This document shows positions 9,642 to 26,197 of a stretch of 64,000 nucleotides of DNA, one piece after another (the first letter of the stretch is position 1; every line of letters begins with the position of its first letter). The DNA comes from Luteithermobacter gelatinilyticus (GTDB taxonomy: Bacteria > Pseudomonadota > Alphaproteobacteria > Sphingomonadales > Emcibacteraceae), in NCBI RefSeq assembly GCF_005849285.1, contig NZ_CP040517.1, forward strand, positions 2,052,501-2,116,500. Direction: 5' to 3'. The notes under the pieces are model-generated. The model had not been told where the DNA came from. It made no database searches and was given only the letters and a program-made list of their open reading frames with translations. A program made the translations under genes and the position numbers.

Positions 9642-10118
9642 TCAGAGTGAGCGGGGATCCAGTTCAAATATGCCGTCAATCTCGACGCTCGCCCCGCCCG
9701 GCAGGGAACTGCAACCCACGGCCGCCCGGGCATGCTGCCCCCTTTCTCCCAGACACTTCCTGAACAGATCGGACGCCCCGTCGGCCACCCGGGAATGATC
9801 CCGAAAATCAGCCGCAGCATTCACATAGACGGTCAGTTTGAGACAGGACTGCAAATGGTCCAGATCTCCCCCACAGGCGATTTTAAGTTGCAAGAACAGG
9901 TTCAGGGCGCAAAACTCAGCCGCCTTGATCCCCTCCTCTAGGCTTATTTCCTGCCCTACGGCGCCACGATAAACCAGCTTGCCGTTCCACTTACAGGTCT
10001 GTCCGGAAACATAGACCAAAGCGCCATACCTGCTATAGGCCACATAATTGCCCACCGGACCGTTTCTTTCCGGCAGGGACAGGCCAAGTTTTCGCAGTTT
10101 TTGTTCCACTTGGGACAT
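9642..10118 (-). CDS. RidA/YjgF/YER057c family protein
   Basis: About 158 residues with the RidA fold: NYVAYSRYGALVYVSGQTC at the N-terminal beta region, VYVNAAADFRDHSRVADGASDLF in the middle and ARAAVGCSSLPGGASVEIDGIFEL at the C-terminus. The family's substrate-anchoring Arg is the one in ARAAVG. RidA proteins hydrolyse reactive enamine/imine intermediates from amine or amino-acid oxidation, so its place downstream of the oxidase/Rieske pair hints at an amine substrate (inference). I start it at the ATG at 10118 (MSQVEQ), where family homology begins; no strong Shine-Dalgarno is visible. It lies 61 bp from the first Rieske gene on the same strand. Confidence 0.85.
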   Translation of the reverse strand: MSQVEQKLRKLGLSLPERNGPVGNYVAYSRYGALVYVSGQTCKWNGKLVYRGAVGQEISLEEGIKAAEFCALNLFLQLKIACGGDLDHLQSCLKLTVYVNAAADFRDHSRVADGASDLFRKCLGERGQHARAAVGCSSLPGGASVEIDGIFELDPRSL

Positions 10119-10179
10119 TGTTACCAATTTTTCCCTGGTATTATGGTCACCCCACGCTGGAGCCACAATATTTCAGTTT

Positions 10180-10548
10180 TTATTTCGGGCATTTTTCGTT
10201 TTCCTGGGGAGGGGTTGTACGGATTTTTGGGGTTGGATCGACATAGACGTCTTGGCCGTCGATTTTGACGTTATAGACGGGCTGGCATTTGGCCCATTCA
10301 TCGACCCATCCGGTCTTGAGATCGAACGCCCACTGATGGCCGGGGCAGATCACATTGCCCTGAAACACCAGCCCCTTATGCAGGCGGCGCTGTTTGTGAA
10401 TGCAGATGTCATTCATGGCATACACGTCGCCGTCCACATAAAACAGCGCAATCTCCTGAACCTCCCCCTCGGCCCCCTCAACTTCCACCACCTGTTTCTT
10501 GCGCCGCTTCAGCGCCGCAAGATCCGTTACCCTGATCCATTCAGACAT
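10180..10548 (-). CDS. Rieske [2Fe-2S] ferredoxin, copy 1
   Basis: This 122-residue single-domain Rieske protein has ligands Cys49-x-His51 and Cys68-x2-His71, sixteen residues apart. The short, soluble form with no membrane anchor suggests an electron carrier to an oxygenase rather than a respiratory subunit. The ATG at 10548 is preceded by AGGGCAGGG. The upstream gene on the same strand encodes the diiron oxidase, its likely partner. The protein is identical to that at 17160-17528. The duplicated DNA begins inside the stop codon: this copy ends TAA, the other TAG. Confidence 0.92.
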   Translation of the reverse strand: MSEWIRVTDLAALKRRKKQVVEVEGAEGEVQEIALFYVDGDVYAMNDICIHKQRRLHKGLVFQGNVICPGHQWAFDLKTGWVDEWAKCQPVYNVKIDGQDVYVDPTPKIRTTPPQENEKCPK

Positions 10549-10580
10549 GTACCCTGCCCTTTCCTTGTCGTCTCCCTTAG

Positions 10581-10631
10581 CCTGATCATCCCTTGGGCCT
10601 GATCATCCCTTGGGCCTGATCATTCCCTGGG
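10581..10631. repeat. Three tandem 17-bp repeats between oxidase and Rieske genes
   Basis: Two identical copies of CCTGATCATCCCTTGGG and one near-copy lie head to tail at 10581-10597, 10598-10614 and 10615-10631. The rest of the 212-bp spacer holds a small hairpin (CCGGGA/TCCCGG at 10704-10718) and a GGCGGC/GCCGCC inverted repeat (10724-10747). These could set the ratio of oxidase to Rieske message. The same sequence is at 17561-17611. Confidence 0.7.
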
Positions 10632-10760
10632 CGCGCGCCCCCTAAGATAGTTCTCGATAGTTCTTTGAGGCTTCTCTCGGTGATCTCTTTTGGCAATATT
10701 TCTCCGGGATAGTCCCGGGCACCAGGCGGCCCCCTCAGAAGCCGCCTGTCCGCTTTTCCC

Positions 10761-11501
10761 TCATACCGAGCCGATCGACGCCAAATCCGCCTCCGAATGT
10801 TCAAAGTCCCGCACATAATAATCATACAGCGCCTTGGTATAGGAAAACCGCATGTCCGCCGCATCCCGTACCGCTTCCAGACAGGCCTGCTGCAATTCCG
10901 GCGTCGTGGCCTGGTTCAGCACAATCTCATACCCCCGCTCCCCATGGACCTCATCCGAGGAAATATGCAGCTCGAAAAATTCCGCCTCATCTTCCGTAAA
11001 CCCGTATTTCTCAATCAGCGGCGGATATTGACGCCGGTAAATGTCCGGCACTTGGGATTCCAGTCCCACCACCAAAGCCGCCGTCGCCACCACCCAGTGA
11101 TCACGCATCGCCTTGGCGTAACACCAGCCCTGCAACCCCCGCGTCACCGGGTTCATGTTCCGCGGATCCTCAACCCGTTCCCGCGTCGTCCCGCAGGCTT
11201 CCGCAAAACGGATCAGAAGATCCGTATGGCGAATGTCCGCCAGTTCCTCCTCATACATGTTCTGCAACAGAAAATCCTTCGCCTCCGTCGCACTCTCCGG
11301 CGCATTGGCGTAAATATAGCCCAGATAATCCGCAAACGGCCCCACATAATGATAATGGTTCTCCGCCCAGCGCGCAAAATGCTCCCGCTTCAGCTCCCCG
11401 TTCGACCAGGCCAGGCTGAACGACGCATCCTTCGCCTCCCGACCCTTCATCGCCTCCTTGATCGCCTTGCGAAACTCGTCCTTGCTTAACAATTCTGCCA
11501 T
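10761..11501 (-). CDS. Heme-oxygenase-like diiron oxidase (TenA/PqqC/CADD superfamily), copy 1
   Basis: This 246-residue, probably all-helical protein of the TenA/PqqC 'iron-containing redox enzyme' group carries a complete potential diiron ligand set: Glu85-x6-His92, Glu148, and His179-x3-Asp183-x2-His186. This is the spacing I recall for CADD (E81/H88, E142, H174/D178/H181), so it is more likely an O2-activating HDO than a thiaminase or a cofactorless PqqC. The start is the ATG at 11501, with GGAG/AGGAG just upstream; the longer frame to 11642 runs through the promoter and operator. The Rieske gene downstream is a plausible electron donor. The substrate is unknown. The protein is identical to that at 17741-18481. 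Confidence 0.88.
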   Translation of the reverse strand: MAELLSKDEFRKAIKEAMKGREAKDASFSLAWSNGELKREHFARWAENHYHYVGPFADYLGYIYANAPESATEAKDFLLQNMYEEELADIRHTDLLIRFAEACGTTRERVEDPRNMNPVTRGLQGWCYAKAMRDHWVVATAALVVGLESQVPDIYRRQYPPLIEKYGFTEDEAEFFELHISSDEVHGERGYEIVLNQATTPELQQACLEAVRDAADMRFSYTKALYDYYVRDFEHSEADLASIGSV

Positions 11502-11560
11502 CTCTCTCTCCTGTCTCCTCAATACGTGGCCAAACCTGTTTAACTCAAAGTTCTCCAAAA

Positions 11561-11588
11561 CTGTATACTGTATACAGATTGTTGTCAA
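11561..11588 (-). promoter_or_regulatory. Promoter and GntR-type operator of diiron oxidase copy 1
   Basis: CTGTATAC-T-GTATACAG at 11561-11577 is a perfect odd palindrome. On the minus strand TTGACA (11583-11588) is followed after 17 bases by TACAGT, so the operator covers the -10 region, a layout typical of repression. The core TGTATACAGT recurs at five other intergenic sites in the window. Confidence 0.75.
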
Positions 11589-11693
11589 TGTACTTTTTTC
11601 CCCTTTACACCGGTTCCACTTTACATGCGTCACCTTATACATTTTATAAATAAGCCAGAGGCGTTTTCCCGCTCAGAATTCTTAAATATACAC

Positions 11694-11722
11694 TTGACAC
11701 AAATTACATACTGTATACAGTA
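11694..11722 (+). promoter_or_regulatory. Promoter and GntR-type operator of the glcG-like/ALDH operon
   Basis: TTGACA at 11694-11699 is followed after 16 bases by TACAGT. The perfect palindrome TACTGTATACAGTA (11709-11722) overlaps that -10 box. It lies 43 bp before the ATG at 11765 and shares the TGTATACAGT core with the divergent oxidase promoter about 130 bp away. Confidence 0.75.
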
Positions 11723-11764: not shown

Positions 11765-12235
11765 ATGATCACCAAAAAAGTACTCAGTCTGGCCGAAGCA
11801 GAATTCCTGCTTGACGCCGCTCAGAAAGCTTCCGAAAAATTCGGCGGCAAACACGTTATCTGCATTGCCGATGATACCGGATACCCCATTGCCTTGCGTC
11901 GACTGGACAATGCCAAGGTAACCGGCGTGCAGATTGCCGAAAACAAGGCGTTCACCGCCGCGGCGCACCGCCGGGTCACACACACCTTCACCAACACCTA
12001 TCCGGGTGAAGAGGCCTGGGGCATTTTCACCCAGCATGGCGGCCGTATCACCGTGTTTGTCGGCGGTTATCCGATTTATGTTGACGGCGCCGTCGTCGGC
12101 GGCATCGGTGTATCCGGTGGCAATGGCGAAGAAGACATCGCCGTATGCGAAGCCGCCATCGAGGCCTTCAAGGAATATATGAAGGAAACCGGCGGTGGTG
12201 AAGTCACCATTCCGGAACAAGCCCAAAAGGCATGA
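11765..12235 (+). CDS. GlcG/HbpS family heme-degrading-domain protein
   Basis: This 156-residue DUF336/GlcG-HbpS protein has the typical VICIADDTGYPIALRRLDNA strand region (about 34-53) and the Gly-rich end VVGGIGVSGGNGEEDIAVCEAA (about 124-145). Family members bind heme or small cofactors, or act as accessory proteins in catabolic operons; no precise reaction is known. AGGAG lies eight bases upstream of the ATG. The stop overlaps the ATG of the aldehyde dehydrogenase (ATGA), so the two are translationally coupled. The gene lies under a GntR-type operator. Confidence 0.85.
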   Translation: MITKKVLSLAEAEFLLDAAQKASEKFGGKHVICIADDTGYPIALRRLDNAKVTGVQIAENKAFTAAAHRRVTHTFTNTYPGEEAWGIFTQHGGRITVFVGGYPIYVDGAVVGGIGVSGGNGEEDIAVCEAAIEAFKEYMKETGGGEVTIPEQAQKA

Positions 12236-13695
12236 GCATGTCACAAGATTTTATCGGCAAGAACTTTATCGGTGGCGCCTGGGTTCCCGCGAGCAACGGC
12301 GGAACCTTTGAGCGCAGAAACCCGGCAGACAATGAGGATGTGGTTGGACACTTCCCAGCATCCACGCCAGAAGATGCCAAGCGCGCCGTGGAAGGGGTGG
12401 ATCAGGGCCGCCATGACTGGGCGGCCACCGATCCGGAAAAACGTATGACCGTCCTGGAAAAGGCGGCGGACCTTATCCTGGAACGTGTGGACGACCTGGC
12501 GCGGGAACTCACTCGCGAGGAAGGCAAGCCGCTTGGCTCAGCCACCATGGAATGGAAACGCACAGCGGCCAATTTTCGGCTTTATGCCGGGGAAGCCCTG
12601 CGCAGCCTCGGGGAAACCTTCCCGGTCGCGGGCAATAGCCTGGTCTGCTCCATCCGCGAACCCGTCGGGGTTGTGCTGGCCATTACCCCTTGGAATTTCC
12701 CGGTCTCCATCCCGTCACGAAAAATCGGTCCGGCCCTGGCCACTGGTAATGGCGTGGTGTTCAAACCATCCGAAGTCACCCCGCTTTCAGGCCAGAGAAT
12801 GGTTGAAATTCTTCTGGAGGCTGGCGTCCCTGAAGGCGCCATCGCCCTGGTACAGGGGGGTGGGGCGGAACTGGGCACGGCTCTGGTCACGGCCCCGGCC
12901 GTCAAAGCCGTAACCTTTACCGGTTCGTTCGCCACCGGCAGCGCCATTCATCAGGCCGCCGGCCCCTCGAAACGCCTGCAACTGGAAATGGGGGGGAAAA
13001 ACCCCTGCATCGTATTGGAGGATGCGGACACCGAACGGGCCGCCCAAATCATTGCCCAGGGCGCCTTTAATCTGACGGGGCAGGCCTGCACGGCCACCAG
13101 CCGGGCCTTTGTCATGGACAGTATTTATGATGAGGTTCTGGAAAAAGTCGTGAACAAGGCACGGGCCATCAAAGTGGGCAACGGTCTGGATAAGAACACC
13201 AAAATGGGCCCGCTCGCCACCCAGGCGCAGTTTGACAAAGTGCGCGAGATGATTGAAGTGGGCAAAGCCGAAGGTCTGCGCATGGCCTATGGGGCTGACG
13301 ATCTGGAAACACCGCTGCCACAGAACGGCTTTTATGTGGCGCCCACAGTGTTTGCGGATGTGCCCAACTCTTCCCGGCTCGCCCAAGAGGAAATCTTCGG
13401 GCCGGTGGTTTGCCTGCATCGCGTTAACAATTATGAGGACGCCATCCGCCAGGCTAATACAGTGGAATACGGCCTTGCCGCGTCTCTCGTCACCCGGGAT
13501 ATGGGCCGCGCGCTGTCTTTCGCTCATGACATTGAGGCCGGTGTAATCAAGATCAACAGCGCAACGGGTGGGGTTGCTCTCACCGCCCCCTTCGGCGGCA
13601 TCAAACATTCCAGCAACCAGACTTACAAGGAACAGGCTGGACACGGGGTGATGGATTTTTACACGACCACTAAAACCGTTTACCTCGCCAACTGA
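12232..13695 (+). CDS. NAD(P)-dependent aldehyde dehydrogenase (KGSADH-like)
   Basis: This 487-residue aldehyde dehydrogenase has the general base Glu252 in LEMGGK, the nucleophile Cys286 in [16 protein letters not shown] at 150-157 and FTGSFATG at 229-236. It most resembles the alpha-ketoglutarate/succinate semialdehyde branch, but the substrate is uncertain. The gene overlaps the GlcG-like gene by four bases and ends before a strong hairpin, so the two form a compact GntR-controlled operon. An ATG at 12238 is an alternative start. Its likely role is oxidising an aldehyde produced by the diiron oxidase or an amine-oxidising step (inference). Confidence 0.88.
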   Translation: MSMSQDFIGKNFIGGAWVPASNGGTFERRNPADNEDVVGHFPASTPEDAKRAVEGVDQGRHDWAATDPEKRMTVLEKAADLILERVDDLARELTREEGKPLGSATMEWKRTAANFRLYAGEALRSLGETFPVAGNSLVCSIREPVGVVLAITPWNFPVSIPSRKIGPALATGNGVVFKPSEVTPLSGQRMVEILLEAGVPEGAIALVQGGGAELGTALVTAPAVKAVTFTGSFATGSAIHQAAGPSKRLQLEMGGKNPCIVLEDADTERAAQIIAQGAFNLTGQACTATSRAFVMDSIYDEVLEKVVNKARAIKVGNGLDKNTKMGPLATQAQFDKVREMIEVGKAEGLRMAYGADDLETPLPQNGFYVAPTVFADVPNSSRLAQEEIFGPVVCLHRVNNYEDAIRQANTVEYGLAASLVTRDMGRALSFAHDIEAGVIKINSATGGVALTAPFGGIKHSSNQTYKEQAGHGVMDFYTTTKTVYLAN

Positions 13696-13768: not shown

Positions 13769-13922
13769 AAACGCCCGGCCAAATTATCCCCGGCACTGGC
13801 GGACCAGTTGGGCGGGATGAGGGGAGCCCCCACCTTCCCTATAAAAACAAACAACAATATTGGACGACATCTATAGAAACGCCGATGGATCTGCTATAAG
13901 CGGCCGGAAAAAAAGGTATCAC

Positions 13923-14681
13923 ATGGACAATTTCGGTTTTGACATTATTCATCAGCTCCCCTGGTCCAGTCTGCTGCTGGGGGTTGTGGCTGTTTTTGCG
14001 GGATCCGTCATTCAGGGGGCCACGGGACTGGGGCTCGGTATGGTGGCGGCCCCCGTTCTGATGATCATCGACCCGGTTTTTGTGCCAGGACCATTATTGA
14101 TGTTGGCCATGCTGGTTTCCTTTTTGATGGCGGTCCGCGAAAGACATCATATCGACCACAAGGGCCTCGCCCTCGCCTTGTCGGGACGAATTCCAGGCAC
14201 CATACTGGCCGCCCTCACCATTTCGGCAATTCCTCTGGCTCTTTATGGGCTCATTTTCGGTCTTATGGTGCTCGCTGCGGTTTTGCTCAGCATTAGTCGG
14301 TGGAAATTCAAAACCTCTCCCTCCAACCTGTTTACCGCTGGTCTGGCTTCGGGCTATATGGGAACACTGACGTCCATAGGCGCGCCTCCCATCGCCCTGG
14401 CATACCAGCATGACACCGCGGCCGTGATCCGGTCTACGCTAGCAGCCTTTTTCCTGGTGGGATCAGCATTTTCCATCCTGACGCTGGTCTGGTTTGGCGG
14501 ATTTTCGCTCAATCATTTGCTGGTCAGCGCGGTGTTTGTTCCGCCGCTACTGGTCGGTTTCCGGGTGTCCAGCTGGATGGTTCCCCGCATGAATTCCCGA
14601 ATGGTCAGGCTGTCGGTGCTGGGCCTGTCCGGCCTGTCCGCCCTCATCCTGATCATCCGGTCTGTAATGTCGCTGCCCTGA
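13923..14681 (+). CDS. Sulfite exporter TauE/SafE family membrane protein
   Basis: This 252-residue, very hydrophobic protein has about eight predicted membrane segments and the family repeats GSVIQGATGLGLGMVAAPVL (about 27-46) and YMGTLTSIGAPPIALAYQ (about 141-158). Members export sulfite, sulfoacetate or other small organic anions. I prefer the ATG at 13923 with AAAGG upstream; a TTG at 13860 would add a hydrophilic 21-residue tail. It is probably a separate unit after the terminator at 13732, convergent with the SDR gene. The cargo is unknown. Confidence 0.82.
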   Translation: MDNFGFDIIHQLPWSSLLLGVVAVFAGSVIQGATGLGLGMVAAPVLMIIDPVFVPGPLLMLAMLVSFLMAVRERHHIDHKGLALALSGRIPGTILAALTISAIPLALYGLIFGLMVLAAVLLSISRWKFKTSPSNLFTAGLASGYMGTLTSIGAPPIALAYQHDTAAVIRSTLAAFFLVGSAFSILTLVWFGGFSLNHLLVSAVFVPPLLVGFRVSSWMVPRMNSRMVRLSVLGLSGLSALILIIRSVMSLP

Positions 14682-14705: not shown

Positions 14706-15491
14706 TCAGAATCCCACGACCGCGCCGCCATCCACCCGGATGACCGAACCGGTCACAAAACTGGCGCGGGCGCTGCACAGAAAAGTCACCACATCAGCCA
14801 GTTCTTCGGCCCGGCCCAACCGGCCCAGAGGAATGGCCTTTTCATTCTCCCGGCGCATGGCTGCCGCCTCAATCCCTTCCCGGCTGGCCAGCCAGGCTTC
14901 GAAACGGGTATAGGCCGGTGTATCAAACTGGCCGGGCACAACCACATTCACCAGCACCTCAGGCGCAAGTTCCAGGGCCAGGGATCGAGCTGCCGCCGCC
15001 ACTCCGCTTCTGAACACTGAAGACAATGCCAGTTCCGGCGTCGCTTCCAGCACAGAGCGCGCCGTGATGAAGATCATGCGTCCCGCGAATGAGTTGCCCT
15101 GAGAGGATTTTTTCAGATAGGGCACAGCTGCCAGCGCCGCCTCCAGAGCCGGTCGCAGCATGCTATGATAGGCCTTGTCCCGGCTTTCCCCCGTCATATC
15201 CAGAATGCCGCCGGGTGTGCCGCCGCCCGTATTGACCACGATGACATCCAGCCCCCCGAGCCCCCGGGCCGCCTCTTCTACTAGCCGGGTGGCCTCCCCT
15301 GCGACACTCAGGTCTCCGGTTACAGCCAAACGGCCACCGCATTCCTCTACCGCTTTGCGGGCCCGCCCGGGATCACGCCCGGCAATCGCAACCTCGGCCC
15401 CTTCAGCAGCCAGGGTATGAGCTATGGCCCGGCCCAGTCCGGAACTGGAGCCGAGCACAAGGGCTTTCCGATTTGTCAAGCCAAGATCCAT
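14706..15491 (-). CDS. SDR family oxidoreductase with atypical active site
   Basis: This 261-residue Rossmann protein has the cofactor loop GSSSGLGRA (14-22) and the NTGGG element near 87. The usual catalytic Tyr-x3-Lys is not present: the aligned stretch reads LSSVFRSGV, giving Ser157 and Arg161 by eye, while Ser146 of ARSV is kept. This is seen in a divergent SDR subgroup and suggests altered or lost dehydrogenase chemistry. The gene starts one base after the stop of the FAD-Rieske reductase, so the two are tightly coupled. Its probable role is a step on the product of the oxidase. Confidence 0.85.
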   Translation of the reverse strand: MDLGLTNRKALVLGSSSGLGRAIAHTLAAEGAEVAIAGRDPGRARKAVEECGGRLAVTGDLSVAGEATRLVEEAARGLGGLDVIVVNTGGGTPGGILDMTGESRDKAYHSMLRPALEAALAAVPYLKKSSQGNSFAGRMIFITARSVLEATPELALSSVFRSGVAAAARSLALELAPEVLVNVVVPGQFDTPAYTRFEAWLASREGIEAAAMRRENEKAIPLGRLGRAEELADVVTFLCSARASFVTGSVIRVDGGAVVGF

Positions 15492-15492
15492 G

Positions 15493-17064
15493 TCAGTTTA
15501 CCTTGACATAGATATGGCCGTTCATTTCACGAACCGGATAGGTTCTCACCGGTTTGGTGGCCGGCGGGTTGACCGGAATCCCCGTTTCCAGTTCGAACAT
15601 GGACCCATGACACAGACAGGTCAGACAATCGTCTTCCACTTTCCCGGAGGCCAGATGACAGGCCAAATGGGTGCACAGATTGTGTACGGCATAAGCTTTC
15701 CCTTTGGAGCGGGCAATGGCCAGTTCCACATCCCCCACCACAAAACGGCGCACCATGCCTTCCCCGATCTGGCCGCTGCGGGCGGCTTTAAGGTATTCCC
15801 CTTCACTCTCTGGGGCATCCGCGGCGCTTTCCGGTTCGGCTTCGCGTTCCTTGCTGGAGAGAATATCCTGCAGGTCCGCATCCTCATCTCGAAGCATGGC
15901 TGGATCCACCTTGATCTGTTCGGCGATGAAGGTCTTGGCCATCATTACATCCGCCCCCCGGTCCACGGCGAATGCCGCGCCAATCTTGCCGTCCACCATA
16001 TAAAAGGCGGTAAAGTCCATCTCCTCAAGTGAGCCGCGGATCACAATGTCATCCCATTTGTCCGCATACCCTGCATATTGTAGGTTATGATCATACTGAT
16101 CCGACCAGAACCAGTGCGGGTCATCATAGACCGTACGGATGCCCATCATATTCTTGGCCGCCACCGCGCCCTGCCGGGTGGCGTTATCGAAATGTTCAAC
16201 CCGCATCCGCCGGTCATAAAGCGGATGATAATGATTGGCCACATCACCGGCGGCAAACACCCCTTCAGCAGAAGTCCGGCAGAACTCATCCACCCGGATT
16301 CCGTTTCCAACGGTGATTTCGGAGGCCCGGGCAATCTGGTCATTGGGCTCAATGCCGATCCCCACAACCACAAGGTCCGCTTCCAGCGTATCACCGGTGC
16401 TCAGCTTCACAAGTTTTTTACCCCCCTTCTCACTCACCGTTTCCACACTCACCTCGCAGCGCAGATCGACACCATTTTCTCGATGCATTCTGGCGCAAAC
16501 TTCGCCAATTTCCGGGCCCAGAACCTTCTGTAACGGGGTATTCATGGCTTCCAGCATGGTCACCTTGGCCCCCAGCGCCCGAGCAGACGCGGCCACCTCC
16601 GAGCCGATAAAGCCGGCACCCACAACAACCACATGGCTGTCCTTGGTGATCTCCTCGCGTAACTGGTCTGAGTCTTCAATATTTCTCAGATATCTGACCA
16701 GCGCATCATCCACGCCATCCAGACGACGCGGCCGCCCACCTGTGGCCAGCAGCACCGCATCGGCCACCAGATGGGTTCCGTCTTCCAGTTCCACATCCAG
16801 ATTGCCGGTATTGATCCGCGCCACCCGGCTGTGTAACCTGAGCTCCACATCATTGGCTGAATACCAGTCAAGCGCCGCAGCCCAGATTTCCTCCTTATCG
16901 GATTCGCCCTGCAGATACTCCTTGGACAAGGGCGGTCGCTGATAGGGAGCGATGGATTCTTCGCTCACTATGATGATATGACCATCAAATCCCAGACGGC
17001 GCAGCGTGCGCGCAGCGGAAACGGATGTCTGTCCGCCACCGATCAAAACAAATTGGCGTCTCAT
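15493..17064 (-). CDS. FAD-dependent ferredoxin reductase fused to a C-terminal Rieske domain
   Basis: About 523 residues. The N-terminal two-thirds is a rubredoxin/ferredoxin-NAD(P) reductase: FAD loop IGGGQTSVSAARTLR at the start, PYQRPPLSK near 43, a second nucleotide loop VVVGAGFIGSE near 150 and FAAGDVANH near 270. After a linker comes a Rieske domain with Cys466-x-His468 and Cys485-x2-His488 (numbered from the GTG). In AIF-like fusions the Rieske domain is usually N-terminal, so this order is unusual. Start codons are ATG at 17064 or GTG at 17070, with AAGGA 10 or 4 bases upstream. The gene lies directly below Rieske copy 2 and is the obvious electron source for the oxidase system. Confidence 0.88.
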   Translation of the reverse strand: MRRQFVLIGGGQTSVSAARTLRRLGFDGHIIIVSEESIAPYQRPPLSKEYLQGESDKEEIWAAALDWYSANDVELRLHSRVARINTGNLDVELEDGTHLVADAVLLATGGRPRRLDGVDDALVRYLRNIEDSDQLREEITKDSHVVVVGAGFIGSEVAASARALGAKVTMLEAMNTPLQKVLGPEIGEVCARMHRENGVDLRCEVSVETVSEKGGKKLVKLSTGDTLEADLVVVGIGIEPNDQIARASEITVGNGIRVDEFCRTSAEGVFAAGDVANHYHPLYDRRMRVEHFDNATRQGAVAAKNMMGIRTVYDDPHWFWSDQYDHNLQYAGYADKWDDIVIRGSLEEMDFTAFYMVDGKIGAAFAVDRGADVMMAKTFIAEQIKVDPAMLRDEDADLQDILSSKEREAEPESAADAPESEGEYLKAARSGQIGEGMVRRFVVGDVELAIARSKGKAYAVHNLCTHLACHLASGKVEDDCLTCLCHGSMFELETGIPVNPPATKPVRTYPVREMNGHIYVKVN

Positions 17065-17159
17065 ATTCACTTGTTCCTTTCTTATTGGCCCTTAGGCCCC
17101 TGCCTCACCACTATTTCCCAATTTTCCGTTGTTCACCAATGCCCGTGTGGAGTGGGCTC

Positions 17160-17528
17160 CTATTTCGGGCATTTTTCGTTTTCCTGGGGAGGGGTTGTAC
17201 GGATTTTTGGGGTTGGATCGACATAGACGTCTTGGCCGTCGATTTTGACGTTATAGACGGGCTGGCATTTGGCCCATTCATCGACCCATCCGGTCTTGAG
17301 ATCGAACGCCCACTGATGGCCGGGGCAGATCACATTGCCCTGAAACACCAGCCCCTTATGCAGGCGGCGCTGTTTGTGAATGCAGATGTCATTCATGGCA
17401 TACACGTCGCCGTCCACATAAAACAGCGCAATCTCCTGAACCTCCCCCTCGGCCCCCTCAACTTCCACCACCTGTTTCTTGCGCCGCTTCAGCGCCGCAA
17501 GATCCGTTACCCTGATCCATTCAGACAT
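17160..17528 (-). CDS. Rieske [2Fe-2S] ferredoxin, copy 2
   Basis: Identical at the protein level to 10180-10548, with ligands Cys49/His51 and Cys68/His71. Only the last base of the stop codon differs (TAG here, TAA in copy 1), because the duplicated DNA ends within that codon. In this copy the gene is followed by the FAD-Rieske reductase and SDR instead of RidA and the AhpD-like gene. It may be the ancestral arrangement, since its redox partner is next door (inference). Confidence 0.92.
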   Translation of the reverse strand: MSEWIRVTDLAALKRRKKQVVEVEGAEGEVQEIALFYVDGDVYAMNDICIHKQRRLHKGLVFQGNVICPGHQWAFDLKTGWVDEWAKCQPVYNVKIDGQDVYVDPTPKIRTTPPQENEKCPK

Positions 17529-17740
17529 GTACCCTGCCCTTTCCTTGTCGTCTCCCTTAGCCTGATCATCCCTTGGGCCTGATCATCCCTTGGGCCTGAT
17601 CATTCCCTGGGCGCGCGCCCCCTAAGATAGTTCTCGATAGTTCTTTGAGGCTTCTCTCGGTGATCTCTTTTGGCAATATTTCTCCGGGATAGTCCCGGGC
17701 ACCAGGCGGCCCCCTCAGAAGCCGCCTGTCCGCTTTTCCC

Positions 17741-18481
17741 TCATACCGAGCCGATCGACGCCAAATCCGCCTCCGAATGTTCAAAGTCCCGCACATAATA
17801 ATCATACAGCGCCTTGGTATAGGAAAACCGCATGTCCGCCGCATCCCGTACCGCTTCCAGACAGGCCTGCTGCAATTCCGGCGTCGTGGCCTGGTTCAGC
17901 ACAATCTCATACCCCCGCTCCCCATGGACCTCATCCGAGGAAATATGCAGCTCGAAAAATTCCGCCTCATCTTCCGTAAACCCGTATTTCTCAATCAGCG
18001 GCGGATATTGACGCCGGTAAATGTCCGGCACTTGGGATTCCAGTCCCACCACCAAAGCCGCCGTCGCCACCACCCAGTGATCACGCATCGCCTTGGCGTA
18101 ACACCAGCCCTGCAACCCCCGCGTCACCGGGTTCATGTTCCGCGGATCCTCAACCCGTTCCCGCGTCGTCCCGCAGGCTTCCGCAAAACGGATCAGAAGA
18201 TCCGTATGGCGAATGTCCGCCAGTTCCTCCTCATACATGTTCTGCAACAGAAAATCCTTCGCCTCCGTCGCACTCTCCGGCGCATTGGCGTAAATATAGC
18301 CCAGATAATCCGCAAACGGCCCCACATAATGATAATGGTTCTCCGCCCAGCGCGCAAAATGCTCCCGCTTCAGCTCCCCGTTCGACCAGGCCAGGCTGAA
18401 CGACGCATCCTTCGCCTCCCGACCCTTCATCGCCTCCTTGATCGCCTTGCGAAACTCGTCCTTGCTTAACAATTCTGCCAT
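17741..18481 (-). CDS. Heme-oxygenase-like diiron oxidase, copy 2
   Basis: Identical to the 246-residue protein at 10761-11501, with the same Glu85/His92, Glu148, His179/Asp183/His186 ligand set. It starts at the ATG at 18481 with AGGAG upstream. It is first in an apparent minus-strand operon: oxidase, Rieske ferredoxin, FAD-Rieske reductase, SDR. Its own promoter and GntR operator are inside the duplicated segment, so both copies should respond to the same signal and raise gene dosage. Confidence 0.88.
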   Translation of the reverse strand: MAELLSKDEFRKAIKEAMKGREAKDASFSLAWSNGELKREHFARWAENHYHYVGPFADYLGYIYANAPESATEAKDFLLQNMYEEELADIRHTDLLIRFAEACGTTRERVEDPRNMNPVTRGLQGWCYAKAMRDHWVVATAALVVGLESQVPDIYRRQYPPLIEKYGFTEDEAEFFELHISSDEVHGERGYEIVLNQATTPELQQACLEAVRDAADMRFSYTKALYDYYVRDFEHSEADLASIGSV

Positions 18482-18540
18482 CTCTCTCTCCTGTCTCCTC
18501 AATACGTGGCCAAACCTGTTTAACTCAAAGTTCTCCAAAA

Positions 18541-18568
18541 CTGTATACTGTATACAGATTGTTGTCAA
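18541..18568 (-). promoter_or_regulatory. Promoter and GntR-type operator of diiron oxidase copy 2
   Basis: Same sequence as 11561-11588: the 17-bp palindrome at 18541-18557 over the -10 region and TTGACA at 18563-18568 on the minus strand. Confidence 0.75.
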
Positions 18569-18675
18569 TGTACTTTTCTAATCGGAAATGTCTTTCCGCC
18601 AAATCATCTGCTGCTGTGTAAATTCGCTGCATAAATTTAAGAAATTTTACGCTTCCGCTTTCACCACTGGACAGG

Positions 18676-20169
18676 TCAAAATGCCATCACACTGCCTACA
18701 GTGCGGGGATCAGCTGCCGCCGAAACACATAGACCATCCCCATCGGCGGCAATAATCTGCATCGCCGAACTGGTGGCCCACAGCTCGACTTCTTCAAGCC
18801 GTGAAGCCTGAGATCTGAGCAACGCCATTTCACCAGCGGTGAAACCGTCCTCCACCACAAGGGAATCATCAGCGGGAATCCATTCCCAGCGCGGCGCCAC
18901 AATCAGTCGGCCGATATCCTCCTGCCCGGTGAGCAGCCGCGCCAGGGTTTGCGCATTCCATGGCATCTGATTGGCCCCGCCAGGCGTCGCCCCCAGCAAG
19001 CGGGTTTGGTCCTTTTTTTGTACAGCCCAGGCATGAAGAGTGGTGGCGGGACGGCGCCCAGCCACCGGGAAATTGGGATGTGCCGGATCACTGCTGTAGC
19101 CGCGCCCCGCCCGGTTGGACAAGATCAGGTCATAGTCATGAACGATCAGCCCGCTGCCAAAACGCGGGTAGGAATTGGAATGGACAATGGTCACCATGGT
19201 GCCATCCTGATCCACCGCTGAAACCATAGAGGTGCCGCTGGGGTCCGCCAGTTCCCGACGCTGCCAGGCAATGGCTTTCATCACCCCGGCATAGACCGCC
19301 GCCGCCGCATATTCTGTCGAAGGCGTCACCTCCTGAACCGCATGTATCAAAGAGGCGCCATGCGTAGGCGCCGGAGTCACATAAAGCGGCATATCCCCGA
19401 GCCTGCCGGCCTGACACGCCGTCCATTCCGCCGTCGCGAAGGCAAAATCATCCTGCTCCAGGATACCGCCATGCTCACGCACACAGCGCAGAATGGCCTC
19501 GCCCACCTCCCCGGCAAGAAATTCCGGACCGTCCGCCACCAGGGCCTCCAACGCCCGCGCCAGTCCCGGCAGGCGGGTTATTGTTCCCGGCCGGATTTCT
19601 TTGCCCTCAGGATAATAACAACACCCCGAAGGATTGTGGCGCGCCACAAGTTCGGCCGATTCCTGCGCCAGCGCCGAACAGATCCGGGACCAGCAAAACC
19701 CTTCCCGCGCCAGATCAATCGACGGTTGGGCCAGCTGTGCCAGCGGCAGGCGCCCCCGTTCAGCAAGCGCCAGATACCCTGCCGGGGCGGCCGGCACGCC
19801 CACGGAAGTGGGACCGGTTCTTTCCAGCTCGCCCCGTTCGGCCACCGCTCTCAGCCCCCGTGGTGCGCCGCCAATAGCCAAAAGCGTTTCGGGATCTTTG
19901 CGGTCTTTGTGCCAAACCAGCGCCACCAGATCCCCAGCCAGCCCGCATTTGGGGGGCAACAGCACCGTTTCCGCCAGGGCTGCCGCCACCGCTGCATCAT
20001 AAGCGTTACCGCCGGCCCGCAACATTTCCGTCCCGATCAGCGCCGCCAGAGGAGCGGCTGCAGCTACCGCCGCGTGAGGACCGCGCGCCTGACACTGTTC
20101 TGCCATGACGGCTTCGGCCCCACCCAATCGCCAGCTTTCCTGCTGTGTGTTTTCCTGCTTGGCTTGCAT
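18676..20169 (-). CDS. Gamma-glutamyltransferase family protein
   Basis: This 497-residue Ntn-hydrolase precursor of the GGT family has GGNAYDAAVAAALAE near 53 in the large subunit. The small-subunit start is at SGTSMVSAVD, where Thr313 is the expected nucleophile exposed by self-cleavage, and a TPGGANQ oxyanion element lies further on. There is no clear signal peptide, so the protein is probably cytoplasmic, unlike classical periplasmic GGT. The Lys/Arg pattern for glutathione binding is not obvious, and it could hydrolyse another gamma-glutamyl amide or amide. AGGG lies upstream of the ATG at 20169. The permease upstream may share its transcript across a 146-bp gap. Confidence 0.83.
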   Translation of the reverse strand: MQAKQENTQQESWRLGGAEAVMAEQCQARGPHAAVAAAAPLAALIGTEMLRAGGNAYDAAVAAALAETVLLPPKCGLAGDLVALVWHKDRKDPETLLAIGGAPRGLRAVAERGELERTGPTSVGVPAAPAGYLALAERGRLPLAQLAQPSIDLAREGFCWSRICSALAQESAELVARHNPSGCCYYPEGKEIRPGTITRLPGLARALEALVADGPEFLAGEVGEAILRCVREHGGILEQDDFAFATAEWTACQAGRLGDMPLYVTPAPTHGASLIHAVQEVTPSTEYAAAAVYAGVMKAIAWQRRELADPSGTSMVSAVDQDGTMVTIVHSNSYPRFGSGLIVHDYDLILSNRAGRGYSSDPAHPNFPVAGRRPATTLHAWAVQKKDQTRLLGATPGGANQMPWNAQTLARLLTGQEDIGRLIVAPRWEWIPADDSLVVEDGFTAGEMALLRSQASRLEEVELWATSSAMQIIAADGDGLCVSAAADPRTVGSVMAF

Positions 20170-20315: not shown

Positions 20316-21782
20316 CTACATCATCACAATCGCCAGAATGGTGATCACCAGAATCCCCGATATCACCGGAACAAAATTACGGCGCACCAGATCCGATGGA
20401 GAAACACCGGCAATACCGGCATCGGCACAGGCCCCAAACGCCCAGGCCACCAGGGTGCCGCCGCCGGTAAAGATAGTGACCACCTGCCCCAAAGCCGCCA
20501 GCACCGCCACATCAAACCCCGCCCCATGGGCCAGGGCCCCTGACAAAGACCCCACCAACGGCAACCCGGAAAATCCTGAGCCATCCATTCCTGTCAGCAA
20601 GCCAATGGTGGTGACCCCAAATCCCAGCATCCATCCGGCACCGGCCACATGCTGCCCCAGATAATTCCCCACATCGAACAGAAATCCCGGGGTGCCTTCC
20701 CCCATGACCGTTTGGGCATATTCCGGATTGCCCAGCAGGAAAAATCCCGCAATGGGAATGATCGGCGCAAAAATCTTGATGGCGAAAAAGAAACCTTCCC
20801 GAATATGCAGGCTGATTTCATCCATCGCATGATGGCCGCGGGTGGCGAAGGTGGACAACACCAAAAGCGTCGTTGCCGTCCCACCGAGCAAGGCCGTGGC
20901 CGCCCCGCCGCGAATCGCCTTTTCCGGGACAAACAGGCCCCGGTAAATCATCAACAAGGCAATGCCGAGCAGAATAACCGGTACGGCAATGGCGAACAGT
21001 TGGGCATAAGGCCCCTTGGACTCATTCACCAGAACATGGTCCTTGCCTGTCCCCGCCGGCGCAGCGGACCCATTTCCCGCCAGGGGAAGCTTGCCCTGCG
21101 AGGTTTCCAGTTTACCGGCTCGCATGTCCCGTCGCAACGTCCATGCGGCCACCGCAAAGGCAACCATCCCCGCCACCAGGGAAAACAGAATTGTATAGGG
21201 CAGCAATTCATTGGTGGTGATGCCTGCCGCGCCTGCTGTTAGCCGGGTCGCTCCCTGAATTACCGGGTCCGCGGAAAGCGCCATGCCATGCCCGGACAGG
21301 TTAACCGCTACGGCCCCGCCCATGGCCGGCAACCCCACGCGCATCGCCACGGGAATAAGAACCGTCCCCACCAGAGCCACGGCAGGCGTCGGCCAAAAGA
21401 ATACCGCGGCGATATACATGGTCACCGCCAGAACAAAAAATGCCGTCTTGGGTCCCACCATCAGCTTTTGCATCGGCGCCACCATGATCTGAGCCGCCCC
21501 CTGGGCCTGCAGGGATTTCAACATGGCCGCCATCATTGCAATCACCAGCATAATATCAAACAGCTCCACCCCTGCATTGAGCAAAGCCTTGAACATCACC
21601 TGCACGGCAAAAATGGTCTGATTCAGGACGCCGTCATCCTGCTGATAGGACAACAGCCCCAAGATAAAGGTTCCGACAATGGACGGAATAATCACACCCT
21701 TTCGAAATCCTATGGAAATGAAAATCGACACAACGACCAGCAGAAAAGCCCAATGGGCAATCGTCAACTCTATTTGTTCCAT
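20316..21782 (-). CDS. Predicted permease, ion-transporter superfamily (GntP/CitMHS-like)
   Basis: About 488 residues with roughly 12 hydrophobic segments, two long re-entrant-type Gly/Ala-rich regions (NLSGHGMALSADPVIQG near 170 and TTIGLLTGMDGSGFSGLP near 400) and a hydrophilic central loop. This pattern fits ion-transporter-superfamily carriers for organic acids or amino acids; I cannot name the substrate. The start is placed at the ATG at 21782 (MEQIEL), preceded by AGGG; the longer frame from 21830 has no supporting site. It is divergent from gntR and upstream of the GGT-like gene, and probably imports the substrate or an intermediate. Confidence 0.75.
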   Translation of the reverse strand: MEQIELTIAHWAFLLVVVSIFISIGFRKGVIIPSIVGTFILGLLSYQQDDGVLNQTIFAVQVMFKALLNAGVELFDIMLVIAMMAAMLKSLQAQGAAQIMVAPMQKLMVGPKTAFFVLAVTMYIAAVFFWPTPAVALVGTVLIPVAMRVGLPAMGGAVAVNLSGHGMALSADPVIQGATRLTAGAAGITTNELLPYTILFSLVAGMVAFAVAAWTLRRDMRAGKLETSQGKLPLAGNGSAAPAGTGKDHVLVNESKGPYAQLFAIAVPVILLGIALLMIYRGLFVPEKAIRGGAATALLGGTATTLLVLSTFATRGHHAMDEISLHIREGFFFAIKIFAPIIPIAGFFLLGNPEYAQTVMGEGTPGFLFDVGNYLGQHVAGAGWMLGFGVTTIGLLTGMDGSGFSGLPLVGSLSGALAHGAGFDVAVLAALGQVVTIFTGGGTLVAWAFGACADAGIAGVSPSDLVRRNFVPVISGILVITILAIVMM

Positions 21783-22193
21783 TTTATACCCTATCCTGAC
21801 TTGGAAGCCTCCAAGCACCCTATATTTCATGCGAATTCTTCTTTTTTGTTTTGTTTCGCATGGCCCTAAACCAGTACTCTGGCATCAATACTCTAGCATC
21901 AGTGCCCTGATGACACTATAATTCCCGTTACATCACCCCCTACGCTCCGGTTCACCGGGTGTGATGTGCAGAGTGACCGGATTATTCCGTGACATTTCCG
22001 CAAGGCGAATTATTCTGTTGGAACAAGACCCTACGCTCCCAACTCAAAGCCTGCCACACATCCCAGTAATTCATTTTTCTTTTTTTTCGGGTATGCTATG
22101 TTAATTATACCATGACTTAATTCTGTATACAGTATACAATACGCAAAGCAAAAAAAGTCAAGTCCTAAATGTAACAACCGAGGTAGTCTGACT
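21783..22193. other. Divergent intergenic region between permease and gntR
   Basis: About 410 bp with no supported gene. It carries the promoter/operator of gntR at 22112-22140 and an imperfect direct repeat ACTCTGGCATCAAT / ACTCTAGCATCAGT at about 21877-21904. The permease promoter must lie here, but I could not identify it. Confidence 0.5.
22112..22140 (+). promoter_or_regulatory. Autoregulatory promoter/operator of gntR
   Basis: ATGACT (22112-22117), 17 bases, then TACAAT (22135-22140) forms a reasonable promoter. The perfect palindrome TGTATAC-A-GTATACA (22124-22138) lies in the spacer and overlaps the -10. It shares the TGTATACAGT core with the oxidase, glcG-like and receptor sites, so the regulator probably controls itself. 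Confidence 0.7.
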
Positions 22194-22901
22194 TTGAACG
22201 ACGAAAACAGAACCAATATGTGGACTGAGGTCGGCCAACAGCACCAGTCCCTGAACGACACCGTCGCCAACGCCCTGCGCAAGGCTATATTCCGGGGCGA
22301 CTTCAAACCGGGTGAACGACTAACAGAACCCGGCCTGGCGAAACTGTTTGGTGTTTCCCGCAATCCCATCCGTGAAGCGCTGCGCAAACTCCAGAGTGAG
22401 GGGATTGTCGAAATCCCGCCTCGCAAAAGCGCCCGGGTCGCCCTTCTTTCCCGCCAGGAAGTGGAAGAGATTATCGAGCTGAGAGCGGAACTCGAAGGGT
22501 TAAGCGCCCGTTTCGCTACACGGCGTTTGACGGACGAAACCCGAAAATCTTTCCAGAAACTTCTGGACGAAGGAAATGAGGCGGCAAAAAACAATGACAT
22601 TGACAAAATCCGTGAGTTGAACAGTGAGTTCCATGGCCTTCTTGCCAGTTCCGGAAAAAATCGTTATCTGGCGGACTTCATGCGCATGCTGCGCGAGAGA
22701 ACGTTATGGCTATTTAACCAGGTCATGCAGGATCGGGGAATTGACTCCTGGTACGAACATGCCGCAGTCCTGGAAGCGGTAATGTCCTCTGACGAGAAAC
22801 TCGCGGGTCTTCTTGCGGCGCGCCATGTCAGAAAGGTCGGAACCGATATTCTGACAGCAACCGGTGAGGAAGACAGCCCAGAAGAGAACGACACGGCGTG
22901 A
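22194..22901 (+). CDS. GntR family transcriptional regulator, FCD (FadR) subfamily
   Basis: About 235 residues: an N-terminal winged helix (ANALRKAIFRGDFKPGERLTE then LAKLFGVSRNPIREALRKL, about 23-65) and a C-terminal FCD ligand-binding domain with the usual metal/ligand residues in the ELNSEFHGLLA region and near YEHAAVLEA. The TTG at 22194 has GAGG upstream; the ATG at 22218 is an alternative. It sits among the operons whose promoters carry the TGTATACAGT palindrome, including its own, so it is the best candidate regulator of the duplicated oxidase system. FCD ligands are usually small organic acids. Confidence 0.88.
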   Translation: MNDENRTNMWTEVGQQHQSLNDTVANALRKAIFRGDFKPGERLTEPGLAKLFGVSRNPIREALRKLQSEGIVEIPPRKSARVALLSRQEVEEIIELRAELEGLSARFATRRLTDETRKSFQKLLDEGNEAAKNNDIDKIRELNSEFHGLLASSGKNRYLADFMRMLRERTLWLFNQVMQDRGIDSWYEHAAVLEAVMSSDEKLAGLLAARHVRKVGTDILTATGEEDSPEENDTA

Positions 22902-23056: not shown

Positions 23057-25714
23057 TTAGAAGTCGAAACGCAGTTTGGCGTAATAGAAGCCGCCATTGA
23101 TCCCGGCCGGCGCCGTGGTCGGGTATTTTGACCCGACGATGAAACCGAAGGGGTTTTCATCGGGGAAGCTGTTGAACACATTATCAGCCCCCACCGCCAA
23201 CTCGATTTCTTCGGTCAGATTGATCCCGGCTTCCACATCCACAGTAATCTGGGATCCGGCATCAATTCTCAAAGACCCCGCATTCACATGCAGTTCCGTA
23301 AATGGCCCGTAATAATTGGCCCGGACATGCGCGCGCCAGTTATCTTCACTATGGCGCAGGGTCAGATTACCGCGGAAGTTCGGATTATTGTCTTCCAGCT
23401 GAATAACCCGCGTTTCACTGAGCAGCTCATTGGGATCATCCGGATCAAAGGATGTTACTTCCGTTTTTGTCCAGTTGGCCGCCACCAGGATCTCCGTAGC
23501 CCCCGTCTCCGTCAGGTTCAGCGGAATGGTGGCCACCACATCAACGCCCTGGGTTTCGGTACTGAAGTCGTTGGTAAAGAAACGGAACGTGCCCAGCCCC
23601 GCTGCGGCGAAGAAACCTTCGGCGATCAGGTCTGCGCGCTGCTGATCCGTCAACTCATTACTTGCGGACTGGGTAATGCGGTCATCCATTGTGATGTAAT
23701 AATAATCCACGGTCAGGCTCAGCCACTCGGTTTCATATACAAAACCCACCGAAATACTTTCCGAGGTTTCCGGCTGTATCTGCCTGCCGCCGACCGCCAT
23801 GGCCACCGGGCTTGTGGGCGGGATCACCCCGGTTTCAATCAGATCCCCTTCCGGTGAGATTTCCGTGGTCAGGGCGCTGAAATTCTGCTGTCCGGGGGTG
23901 GGCGCATGAAAGCCTGTGGCAAAGGTTGAACGAATGCCCAAGGAATCCGTGACGTGATAAAGCCCCGCTACCTTATAAGTGGTTTTGCTGCCGAAATCAT
24001 CGAAGTCCTCGAAACGTATGGCACCGCCAAGAACCAGTTTCTCGGTGATGTCCGCTTCTACATCCAGATAGAAGGCAATGTTGCTGCGGTCAAAAATGCC
24101 GGCAATGGTAGGCGAGAATCCGGGGAAGGCCTCTTCCCCGATCAGGAAGCCCTGATCCGCAAGAATACCAGCCTCAAAGGATTCCGGTGCCCCGGCCACA
24201 ATCTCGAACATTTCCTTATGCCATTCAAACCCGGCCGCAATATTCAGCGGTGAATGCAACCCGGATATTTCCAGCGGATAAGTCAGGTCTATATTGACGT
24301 TGGTTTCCGTCTGAATCCTATCCCCGAGATCATCGAAGGTGGTCGGAGACAAGGATCCCAGGCTGGGGTTCAGCACATTATCAATATTAAACGCCAGCTT
24401 GTTACGTCCGGCACTGGCACTGACATCATAGGTCAGACCGTTTTCCAGCTCTCCTCGCACCCCGAGGGCCCCGCTCATATCTGTCAGCTTGCTACCGAAA
24501 AACGGCGTATAACCGCCGGGGAAGAATTCAAGGGCGGAAAAACAGTTGGGGTCTGCAAAAATGGCTGCAAGTCGGGCCTCCGCATCCGGGGATCCTACAG
24601 GAATCGGGTCATTGACCACACCTGTGCCACCAAAATCTATGCCGCCGTCACAGGTGATGCCGTCCTCCGGTGTCATGTCGCCAATCAGAAAATTTCCATT
24701 TTCATCTGCATCGGTGAATACACCAAAACGGCCTTCTGGATTACGGTAGAAGAAATCACCTGCCGTTTTTCTTTCCGCATAACCGGCAAACATATAAAAT
24801 TCCCGGTTATCCCCAGCCTCAACTGCCATGTTCACAAACAGTTTGAGATCATCGTCAATCTGCGGAGTCCCGAAACGGGTCGCCGGATCAGGCACCGCCG
24901 TATTTCCGGCAGCTATCAACGCCGCCGCATCGGCACGCTGTACCGCGCGGGTGGTCAGGTCGCTTTCTCGGAACTCACCGCTAAACCTGACAAAACCGGA
25001 ATCGCCAAGTGGCATGCCCCAGGTTGCAGCAATCTGATAGGCGTCACCGTCACCTTCATAGGTGCTGCCCACCTTGGCTTCGATGGTCCCGCCTTCCGGG
25101 TTATCATTCAGAATAAAGTTCATCACTCCGGCGATCGCGTCAGATCCGTACTGCGCCGCGGCCCCGTCACGCAACACCTGAATCTGTTTCAGGGCAATGG
25201 TCGGAATAGAGGACAGATCAGGCCCCTGCGAACCATCAGAAATCCCACCGGAGAAAGTGGCAATATCCGCCGCCCGATGTCGGCGTTTGCCATTCAGGAG
25301 AACCAGCACATGGTCTGGCGCCAGCCCCCTGAGTGTGGGTGGGCGCACATGCGAGGACGTTCCGCTCAACGGATGGTCCCCAATATTCAACGACGGAATT
25401 GACGTCCGAAGCAAATTGGCGATATCCACCCCACCCTGCGCAGCAAGCTGGTTGGCATCAATAATATCCACCGGCGCCGGAACGTCCGAGGGGGAACGGG
25501 CTTCGCGGCGCGACCCGGTGATGGTGATTTCTTCAATGACAGCGGCTTCGTCCTCCTCAACAGCCGAGGCCTCTTCGGCCCGACTGGACGTCACATTCGC
25601 CTGAGTAAGCGTGACGCCGGCCAAAAGCGTGACCAAAGCCGTGCTAAATGTTGCCCTTTTCCCTGCCGTCACGGGCAACCAGACGGTTTGTTTCTCATAT
25701 TCCAAGCTCGACAT
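23057..25714 (-). CDS. TonB-dependent outer-membrane receptor 1
   Basis: About 885 residues: N-terminal signal region (ATFSTALVTLLAGVTLTQA), a TonB-box-like IEEITITGSR, plug domain (LANLLRTSIPSLNIGDHPLSG-type region through VLRDGAAAQYGSDAIAGVMNF) and a long beta-barrel ending in YYAKLRFDF with the typical terminal Phe. The subclass resembles receptors for carbohydrates or other organics rather than classical siderophore receptors. I start it at the ATG at 25714 (MSSLEYEK), seven bases from AGGAG; the frame is open to 25801. Two GntR-type sites upstream (25921 and 26184) suggest it imports the inducer of the oxidase system. Confidence 0.88.
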   Translation of the reverse strand: MSSLEYEKQTVWLPVTAGKRATFSTALVTLLAGVTLTQANVTSSRAEEASAVEEDEAAVIEEITITGSRREARSPSDVPAPVDIIDANQLAAQGGVDIANLLRTSIPSLNIGDHPLSGTSSHVRPPTLRGLAPDHVLVLLNGKRRHRAADIATFSGGISDGSQGPDLSSIPTIALKQIQVLRDGAAAQYGSDAIAGVMNFILNDNPEGGTIEAKVGSTYEGDGDAYQIAATWGMPLGDSGFVRFSGEFRESDLTTRAVQRADAAALIAAGNTAVPDPATRFGTPQIDDDLKLFVNMAVEAGDNREFYMFAGYAERKTAGDFFYRNPEGRFGVFTDADENGNFLIGDMTPEDGITCDGGIDFGGTGVVNDPIPVGSPDAEARLAAIFADPNCFSALEFFPGGYTPFFGSKLTDMSGALGVRGELENGLTYDVSASAGRNKLAFNIDNVLNPSLGSLSPTTFDDLGDRIQTETNVNIDLTYPLEISGLHSPLNIAAGFEWHKEMFEIVAGAPESFEAGILADQGFLIGEEAFPGFSPTIAGIFDRSNIAFYLDVEADITEKLVLGGAIRFEDFDDFGSKTTYKVAGLYHVTDSLGIRSTFATGFHAPTPGQQNFSALTTEISPEGDLIETGVIPPTSPVAMAVGGRQIQPETSESISVGFVYETEWLSLTVDYYYITMDDRITQSASNELTDQQRADLIAEGFFAAAGLGTFRFFTNDFSTETQGVDVVATIPLNLTETGATEILVAANWTKTEVTSFDPDDPNELLSETRVIQLEDNNPNFRGNLTLRHSEDNWRAHVRANYYGPFTELHVNAGSLRIDAGSQITVDVEAGINLTEEIELAVGADNVFNSFPDENPFGFIVGSKYPTTAPAGINGGFYYAKLRFDF

Positions 25715-25920
25715 TTTCATTCTCCTATAAGCGCTTCCCTTGTGCTCTGTTATTGCTTGCTCTGTTATTACTCTGTTTTCGTTATTTTTTCGGAGCTGCA
25801 TGACTCTTTATATCTTACGGCTCTATTCACTACAGACCCGCCATACCCTGATCATACAGCTCGCTTATGGATGATTTAGTATTCTATACAGCACCTCATG
25901 TTTTGTATATGAATAATGAT

Positions 25921-25935
25921 TACTGTATACAATTA
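25921..25935 (-). promoter_or_regulatory. GntR-type operator upstream of receptor 1 (proximal)
   Basis: On the minus strand the sequence reads AATTGTATACAGTA, containing the TGTATACAGT core shared with the other five sites. It is about 207 bp upstream of the receptor start codon, with TTATAA-like sequence next to it that could serve as a -10. Confidence 0.6.
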
Positions 25936-26183
25936 TAAGATTTTGTCAATTTTTAATAATAATCCGCAACAAAAAAATAGATCCCCCCTTTTCAGCCTAG
26001 GAAAAATGCGCCATGCCAAATCCAGAAAAAACATTATTTTTCATATATTAGAAAAGCTTAACCCAACCGATAACCAGGGAATACCAGCCTTTTCCATCTT
26101 TGCAAAAAAGCGCTCTTTGCGACGGGATTTGGGATTTAGGAGATATTGGCTAACTATAAAATACGTCAGGATTTCTTTTAAAA

Positions 26184-26197
26184 TTGTATACAGTATA
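26184..26197 (+). promoter_or_regulatory. GntR-type operator upstream of receptor 1 (distal)
   Basis: TTGTATACAGTATA contains the same TGTATACAGT core. It is 263 bp from the proximal site and about 470 bp from the receptor start, a spacing that would allow looping. It could alternatively control an unrecognised transcript in this AT-rich region. Confidence 0.55.

Follow-up and report, generated by a model that had tools for sequence, protein, structure and literature searches.

How is a heme-oxygenase-like dimetal oxygenase (HDO) reduced in the cell when its gene lies beside that of a Rieske ferredoxin, and what does such an enzyme do? The question is raised by a gene within 64,000 nt of contig NZ_CP040517.1 of Luteithermobacter gelatinilyticus (hereafter the window), part of a single-contig genome of 3.15 Mb. 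About a dozen HDOs have been characterised (PMC13108848). Nearly all characterised HDOs are biosynthetic and were mostly assayed with artificial reductants, and their reduction in the cell remains largely open. According to a 2026 review, the HDOs studied so far need no protein-based effector, and a ferredoxin is nowhere mentioned. The pair MboA/MboB, published in April 2026, is described as perhaps the earliest case of an HDO with a redox partner of its own, a flavin-Fe2S2 reductase (PMC13185094).

Identification of the HDO and of its predicted metal ligands

The gene had been correctly placed at positions 10761-11501 by the initial annotation, which did not state its minus strand, and each of the six residues proposed there as metal ligands (E85, H92, E148, H179, D183 and H186) was found as claimed in the translation. 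They are invariant in 84/84 aligned proteins, i.e., the window protein and proteins from other genomes (relatives 24-87% identical), two of which share only 24-33% identity. Since they are also invariant in a 40-row alignment and kept in the readable distant PF14518 relatives (20-32% identity), the ligand set goes beyond what chance would leave. In a sequence alignment with checked spacing, the six residues are in register with E81/H88, E142 and H174/D178/H181 of CADD, which we take to be the metal ligands of that protein. Metal content as such is not readable from sequence.

In Pfam the protein scores best with PF14518, “iron-containing redox enzyme” (119 bits for a cut-off of 28.9), well ahead of TENA_THI-4, which scores 38 bits, above its cut-off of 22; the position of the catalytic Cys of the latter family was not mapped. 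The nearest solved proteins by sequence are 4-aminobenzoate synthases/CADD and not TenA thiaminases. The AlphaFold2 model (40 sequences; pLDDT 91, pTM 0.87) was obtained after exclusion of locus L046 from the fold alignment due to an in-frame stop. Its closest structural match is the diiron/Mn-Fe protein CADD, with a VIA Z-score of 27.1, an rmsd of 1.7 Å over 212 residues and a Foldseek E-value of 4e-8, followed by PqqC (Z 26), UndA (Z 24.6) and HrmI (Z 24.1), so that the predicted fold supports the HDO assignment made initially. TenA structures (Z 20-23) rank below CADD, PqqC and UndA. Judged by this predicted fold match and by residue equivalence, the protein is an HDO.

The same fold could be kept without an O2-activating metal site, as in a TenA thiaminase or a PqqC-like protein devoid of metal, and both the matches to PqqC and TenA structures and the weak TENA_THI-4 hit are compatible with it. 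However, the complete ligand set is invariant, and sequence matches put CADD above PqqC, the TenA-named proteins near the bottom of the list of solved matches being UndA-type or uncharacterised homologues. We consider such a metal-free protein very unlikely. PqqC membership was rejected on its own account, with 42.8 bits for NCBIfam TIGR02111 against a cut-off of 240 and with the scanned neighbours containing no pqq genes; thiamine genes are missing from them too.

Among solved structures, CADD comes closest in both sequence and fold, and a weak NCBIfam match of the HDO bears the name “CADD family”, which could point to a self-sacrificing p-aminobenzoate (pABA) synthase of the CADD/NePabS type. 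In CADD, Tyr27 is the sacrificed residue and Lys152 the amine donor (PMC11965152). In the HDO these positions are occupied by Ser29 and Gln158, neither of which varies within the family, and therefore the HDO is not a pABA synthase. Besides, family membership fails on score (86.6 bits for TIGR04305 against a cut-off of 200) and the neighbouring genes are catabolic, not folate genes, which leaves this function scarcely credible. In an alignment read by eye, Tyr141 and Tyr170 of CADD align with Leu147 and Phe175. Hence, the CADD-type label given initially holds for the fold and the metal site and not for the self-sacrifice residues: CADD/NePabS resemble the window HDO in fold (Z 27, 1.7 Å) and in the six ligand positions at 24% identity, whereas the HDO lacks the sacrificial Tyr/Lys and comes with an NADH-Rieske chain and a catabolic neighbourhood.

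Gene neighbourhood and duplication of the HDO-Rieske pair

Both the Rieske ferredoxin and the Rieske-fused FAD reductase with which the HDO had been associated in the initial annotation are real (Table 1).

Table 1. Coordinates of the HDO cluster and of its operator-like sites, as positions of the window.
Feature	Position	Strand	Remarks
HDO copy 1	10761..11501	-	heme-oxygenase-like dimetal oxygenase, 246 aa; ligands E85 H92 E148 H179 D183 H186
HDO copy 2	17741..18481	-	identical to copy 1
Rieske ferredoxin copy 1	10180..10548	-	122 aa, CxH...CxxH; immediately downstream of HDO copy 1
Rieske ferredoxin copy 2	17160..17528	-	identical to copy 1
Exact 1417-bp direct repeat, copy 1	10181..11597		covers HDO and Rieske genes plus 96 bp upstream, operator included
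Exact 1417-bp direct repeat, copy 2	17161..18577		
Ferredoxin reductase	15493..17070	-	FAD/NADH, AndAa/HcaD type, C-terminal Rieske domain
SDR-family dehydrogenase	14706..15491	-	last gene of HDO copy-2 operon
RidA/YjgF-like protein	9642..10166	-	imine/enamine hydrolase type
HbpS/GlcG-like protein	11765..12235	+	
Aldehyde dehydrogenase (ALDH)	12232..13695	+	nearest NCBIfam 2,5-dioxovalerate dehydrogenase, below cut-off
TauE/SafE-type anion exporter	13860..14681	+	
Gamma-glutamyltransferase (GGT)-like Ntn amidohydrolase	18676..20169	-	
Membrane transporter	20316..21830	-	without Pfam family; model of SLC13/TRAP/ArsB elevator fold
GntR/FCD regulator	22194..22901	+	probable regulator of cluster
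TonB-dependent receptor	23057..25801	-	two near-operator sites upstream
Operator-like ACTGTATACAG	11567..11577	+	upstream of HDO copy 1
Operator-like ACTGTATACAGT	11710..11721	+	upstream of HbpS-ALDH-TauE
Operator-like ACTGTATACAG	18547..18557	+	upstream of HDO copy 2
Operator-like ACTGTATACAG	22123..22133	-	between transporter and GntR gene
Near-operator ACTGTATACAAT	25922..25933	+	upstream of TonB receptor
Near-operator ATTGTATACAGT	26183..26194	+	upstream of TonB receptor

The transporter has no match in Pfam or NCBIfam and no sequence match in the PDB. Because its model (pLDDT 86) adopts the SLC13/TRAP/ArsB elevator fold (Z 22-26), the prediction suggests an organic anion as substrate. The transporter family is conserved in most long loci of the HDO cluster.

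The HDO and the Rieske ferredoxin are duplicated together, with their upstream DNA, in the exact direct repeat, and these two copies are the only HDO genes of the genome. Copy 1 heads an HDO-Rieske-RidA unit. Copy 2 heads HDO-Rieske-reductase-SDR as in the relatives and hence is probably the older, ancestral copy, as far as can be inferred from gene order. Although the two repeats have different flanks on both sides, a misassembly remains possible. No other exact repeat of this size occurs in the window. Elsewhere, three diverged direct repeats (44869-45014, 47865-48010 and 49539-49684) lie within open frames of 557-565 aa that follow one another and seem to form a series of paralogous genes.

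Conservation of the pairing and nature of the probable electron donor

Relatives were taken from a scan of one genome per species (84,980 species), the best 80 of which (73-87% identical) belong mostly to actinobacteria and sphingomonads, and the synteny of the family loci was determined by tblastn. In 82 of 85 family loci a Rieske gene is found no further than 1.5 kb away, which holds for none of 31 non-orthologous PF14518 loci (Fisher 4e-25, uncorrected for relatedness, the loci not being phylogenetically independent). The pairing with a Rieske electron supply, described initially for the window alone, is thus kept across the family. The control was composed of 33 other PF14518 loci, 0/33 having a Rieske gene within 1.5 kb, from which two were removed as orthologues (L097 and L100, 64-69% identical; plant-type ferredoxins lie beside L100). 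The CxH...CxxH motif is present in 82/82 Rieske proteins of the family loci. Two distant HDOs of the same order (L004 and L092, 32-33% identical) possess all six ligands and no Rieske gene within 1.5 kb; in L004, an aldehyde dehydrogenase adjoins the HDO gene.

An NAD(P)H-dependent redox partner, made of a Rieske protein and an FAD reductase, lies beside the HDO in the window genome and in most family loci. The HDO is followed by the Rieske gene and an AndAa-type reductase in about 71 of them (one, at a contig end, shows the Rieske only). The electron chain is not uniform, since 11 loci present the HDO, a plant-type ferredoxin and a Rieske gene, without any reductase recognised nearby; these loci (L013, 8749-9488, and ten similar ones) may represent an intermediate or hybrid chain. 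Finally, a Rieske gene is lacking in three loci (two Cupriavidus and one Caballeronia), which contain plant-type ferredoxins with a BenC-like reductase instead. The Burkholderiales orthologues L088 (12783-17864), L087 and L089, with two plant-type ferredoxins and this reductase, look like a natural swap of electron donor. They keep the HDO, ALDH and HbpS genes while the Rieske and reductase genes are replaced, as would be expected if the HDO must be reduced. Donor types are distributed clade-wise on the HDO tree, with about four changes in all. The HDO-Rieske-reductase order remains constant across about 20 arrangements in which the ALDH, HbpS, GGT and transporter genes move. Exactly two Rieske proteins are found in 53 of 61 long loci, and a Rieske oxygenase is absent from 60/61, the remaining locus showing one weak match about 10 kb away. 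With two Rieske proteins and no Rieske oxygenase, the cluster contains no recognised oxygen-activating acceptor other than the HDO.

Adjacency indicates shared function and not direct contact, and the Rieske chain could reduce another component. Turnover of most HDOs studied has been obtained with ascorbate or PMS/NADH (PMC13185094), and the genome has distant Rieske-domain proteins, some of them in long open frames that might encode Rieske oxygenases. The HDO might then use general cellular reductants while the Rieske proteins and the reductase serve another oxygenase and merely share the catabolic island. Nevertheless, the HDO and Rieske genes remain adjacent in 82/85 loci despite many rearrangements, were duplicated together, and sit in long loci where a Rieske oxygenase is missing in all but one case; moreover, the HDO stays the same where the type of donor changes. 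These points make a general reductant unlikely without ruling it out, and the need of the HDO for its Rieske/reductase partner in catalysis is itself inferred.

A close copy of the cluster was detected in just 2 of 398 genomes of the order of the window, i.e., the window genome and one other. Owing to this scarcity, the cluster is regarded as patchy and, by inference, as probably moving horizontally.

A promoter palindrome shared by the cluster

The 3.15-Mb genome contains the palindrome ACTGTATACAG only four times, always at a promoter of the HDO cluster: before both HDO copies, before HbpS-ALDH-TauE and in the transporter/GntR interval. The form WYTGTATACARW occurs at eight places in the genome, including six in the cluster, two of which precede the TonB receptor gene. 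In relatives, GTATAC-type sites are found about 20-90 bp before the HDO, HbpS, GGT, transporter, TauE and ornithine-cyclodeaminase-type (OCD) genes. The neighbouring GntR/FCD gene is likely, by inference, to encode the regulator of the cluster acting through ACTGTATACAG-type sites.

Proposed function of the HDO

We judge it probable that the HDO serves as terminal oxygenase in a multicomponent dimetal (probably diiron) monooxygenase driven by NADH, which belongs to a catabolic pathway, not a natural-product biosynthetic one. No biochemical data exist, and the identity of the metal, the direction of electron flow, monooxygenation and the identity of the regulator are all inferred. In the scheme proposed, NADH would reduce the FAD reductase, and electrons would pass through the Rieske domain of this reductase and the small Rieske ferredoxin to the HDO. 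The latter would activate O2 at its six-ligand site and oxidise an organic anion taken up from outside, which probably contains nitrogen. The resulting product may be handled by the aldehyde dehydrogenase together with RidA or, in other genomes, an OCD-type imine reductase, and in most genomes it might also be processed by the GGT-like amidohydrolase. The GntR regulator, on ACTGTATACAG-type sites, would probably switch the regulon. Hydroxylation next to nitrogen, with the product collapsing into an aldehyde plus an amine or imine, is a guess that rests on gene families, since the aldehyde dehydrogenase and the RidA or OCD-type protein fit such products.

This chemistry is not the only one conceivable. 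Desaturases and C-C cleaving enzymes are among the known HDOs (PMC13108848), and MboA requires MboB for its second turnover (PMC13185094). The HDO might then be a desaturase or a C-C/C-N lyase of the BesC/UndA/MboA kind, the Rieske chain only re-reducing the cluster between turnovers. No sequence feature distinguishes it from a monooxygenase, and the aldehyde dehydrogenase and the imine-handling partners fit either chemistry; we hold the desaturase or lyase to be possible and the less probable of the two.

The substrate itself is unknown, and its class is only weakly inferred, the gene families being unspecific. Naming it from the neighbours was abandoned, as none of the families concerned (GGT-like, RidA/OCD, ALDH, HbpS, TauE and transporter) is specific. 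Taurine/sulfonate (from TauE), phosphonate (from the PhnR-like GntR) and polyamine (from the gamma-glutamyl enzyme) were rejected, each lacking a defining gene or failing across the family. TauE is present in 7/61 and OCD in 6/61 long loci.

Comparison with known systems

The mangotoxin HDO acetylenase MboA and its partner MboB resemble the window HDO in having a linked NAD(P)H-dependent redox partner (PMC13185094). However, MboB is a flavin and Fe2S2 reductase without a Rieske chain, and MboA is biosynthetic with a peptide substrate; the BenC-like reductase of the Burkholderiales family members is nearer to MboB. The AibH1H2/AibG/AibF and SfbO systems combine a dinuclear oxygenase with a small Rieske ferredoxin in catabolic operons, as here, AibH1H2 being also paired with a flavoprotein (PMC10401708, PMC10811679). 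Unlike the window HDO, their oxygenases have the unrelated amidohydrolase fold (PF04909). The electron chains of anthranilate and 3-phenylpropionate dioxygenases (AndAa/AndAb and HcaD/HcaC) belong to the same reductase and Rieske ferredoxin families as those of the window, but they feed a Rieske mononuclear-iron oxygenase, which has no counterpart in the window cluster.

Neither an HDO with a Rieske system nor a study of a cluster of the window type was found in the open-licence PMC literature, an absence that carries little weight, and no HDO accepting electrons from a Rieske protein is known yet. What the evidence supports as new is the association of a conserved Rieske chain with an HDO inside a catabolic regulon; a redox partner dedicated to an HDO was already known with MboB, which is of another type. 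The cluster points to an undescribed catabolic role for HDOs, and its deep conservation, with a donor that switches between lineages, makes electron delivery to the HDO scaffold directly testable. We lean, by a little, toward a wider view, in which a widespread catabolic branch of HDOs would be a true multicomponent monooxygenase, with two Rieske proteins, an NADH reductase and lineage-specific swaps to plant-type ferredoxins, serving an undescribed route by which soil actinobacteria and alphaproteobacteria would degrade a common organic acid that contains nitrogen. The cluster occurs in well-studied culturable genera (Rhodococcus, Mycolicibacterium, Streptomyces and Cupriavidus), so that growth phenotyping offers a way to search for its substrate.
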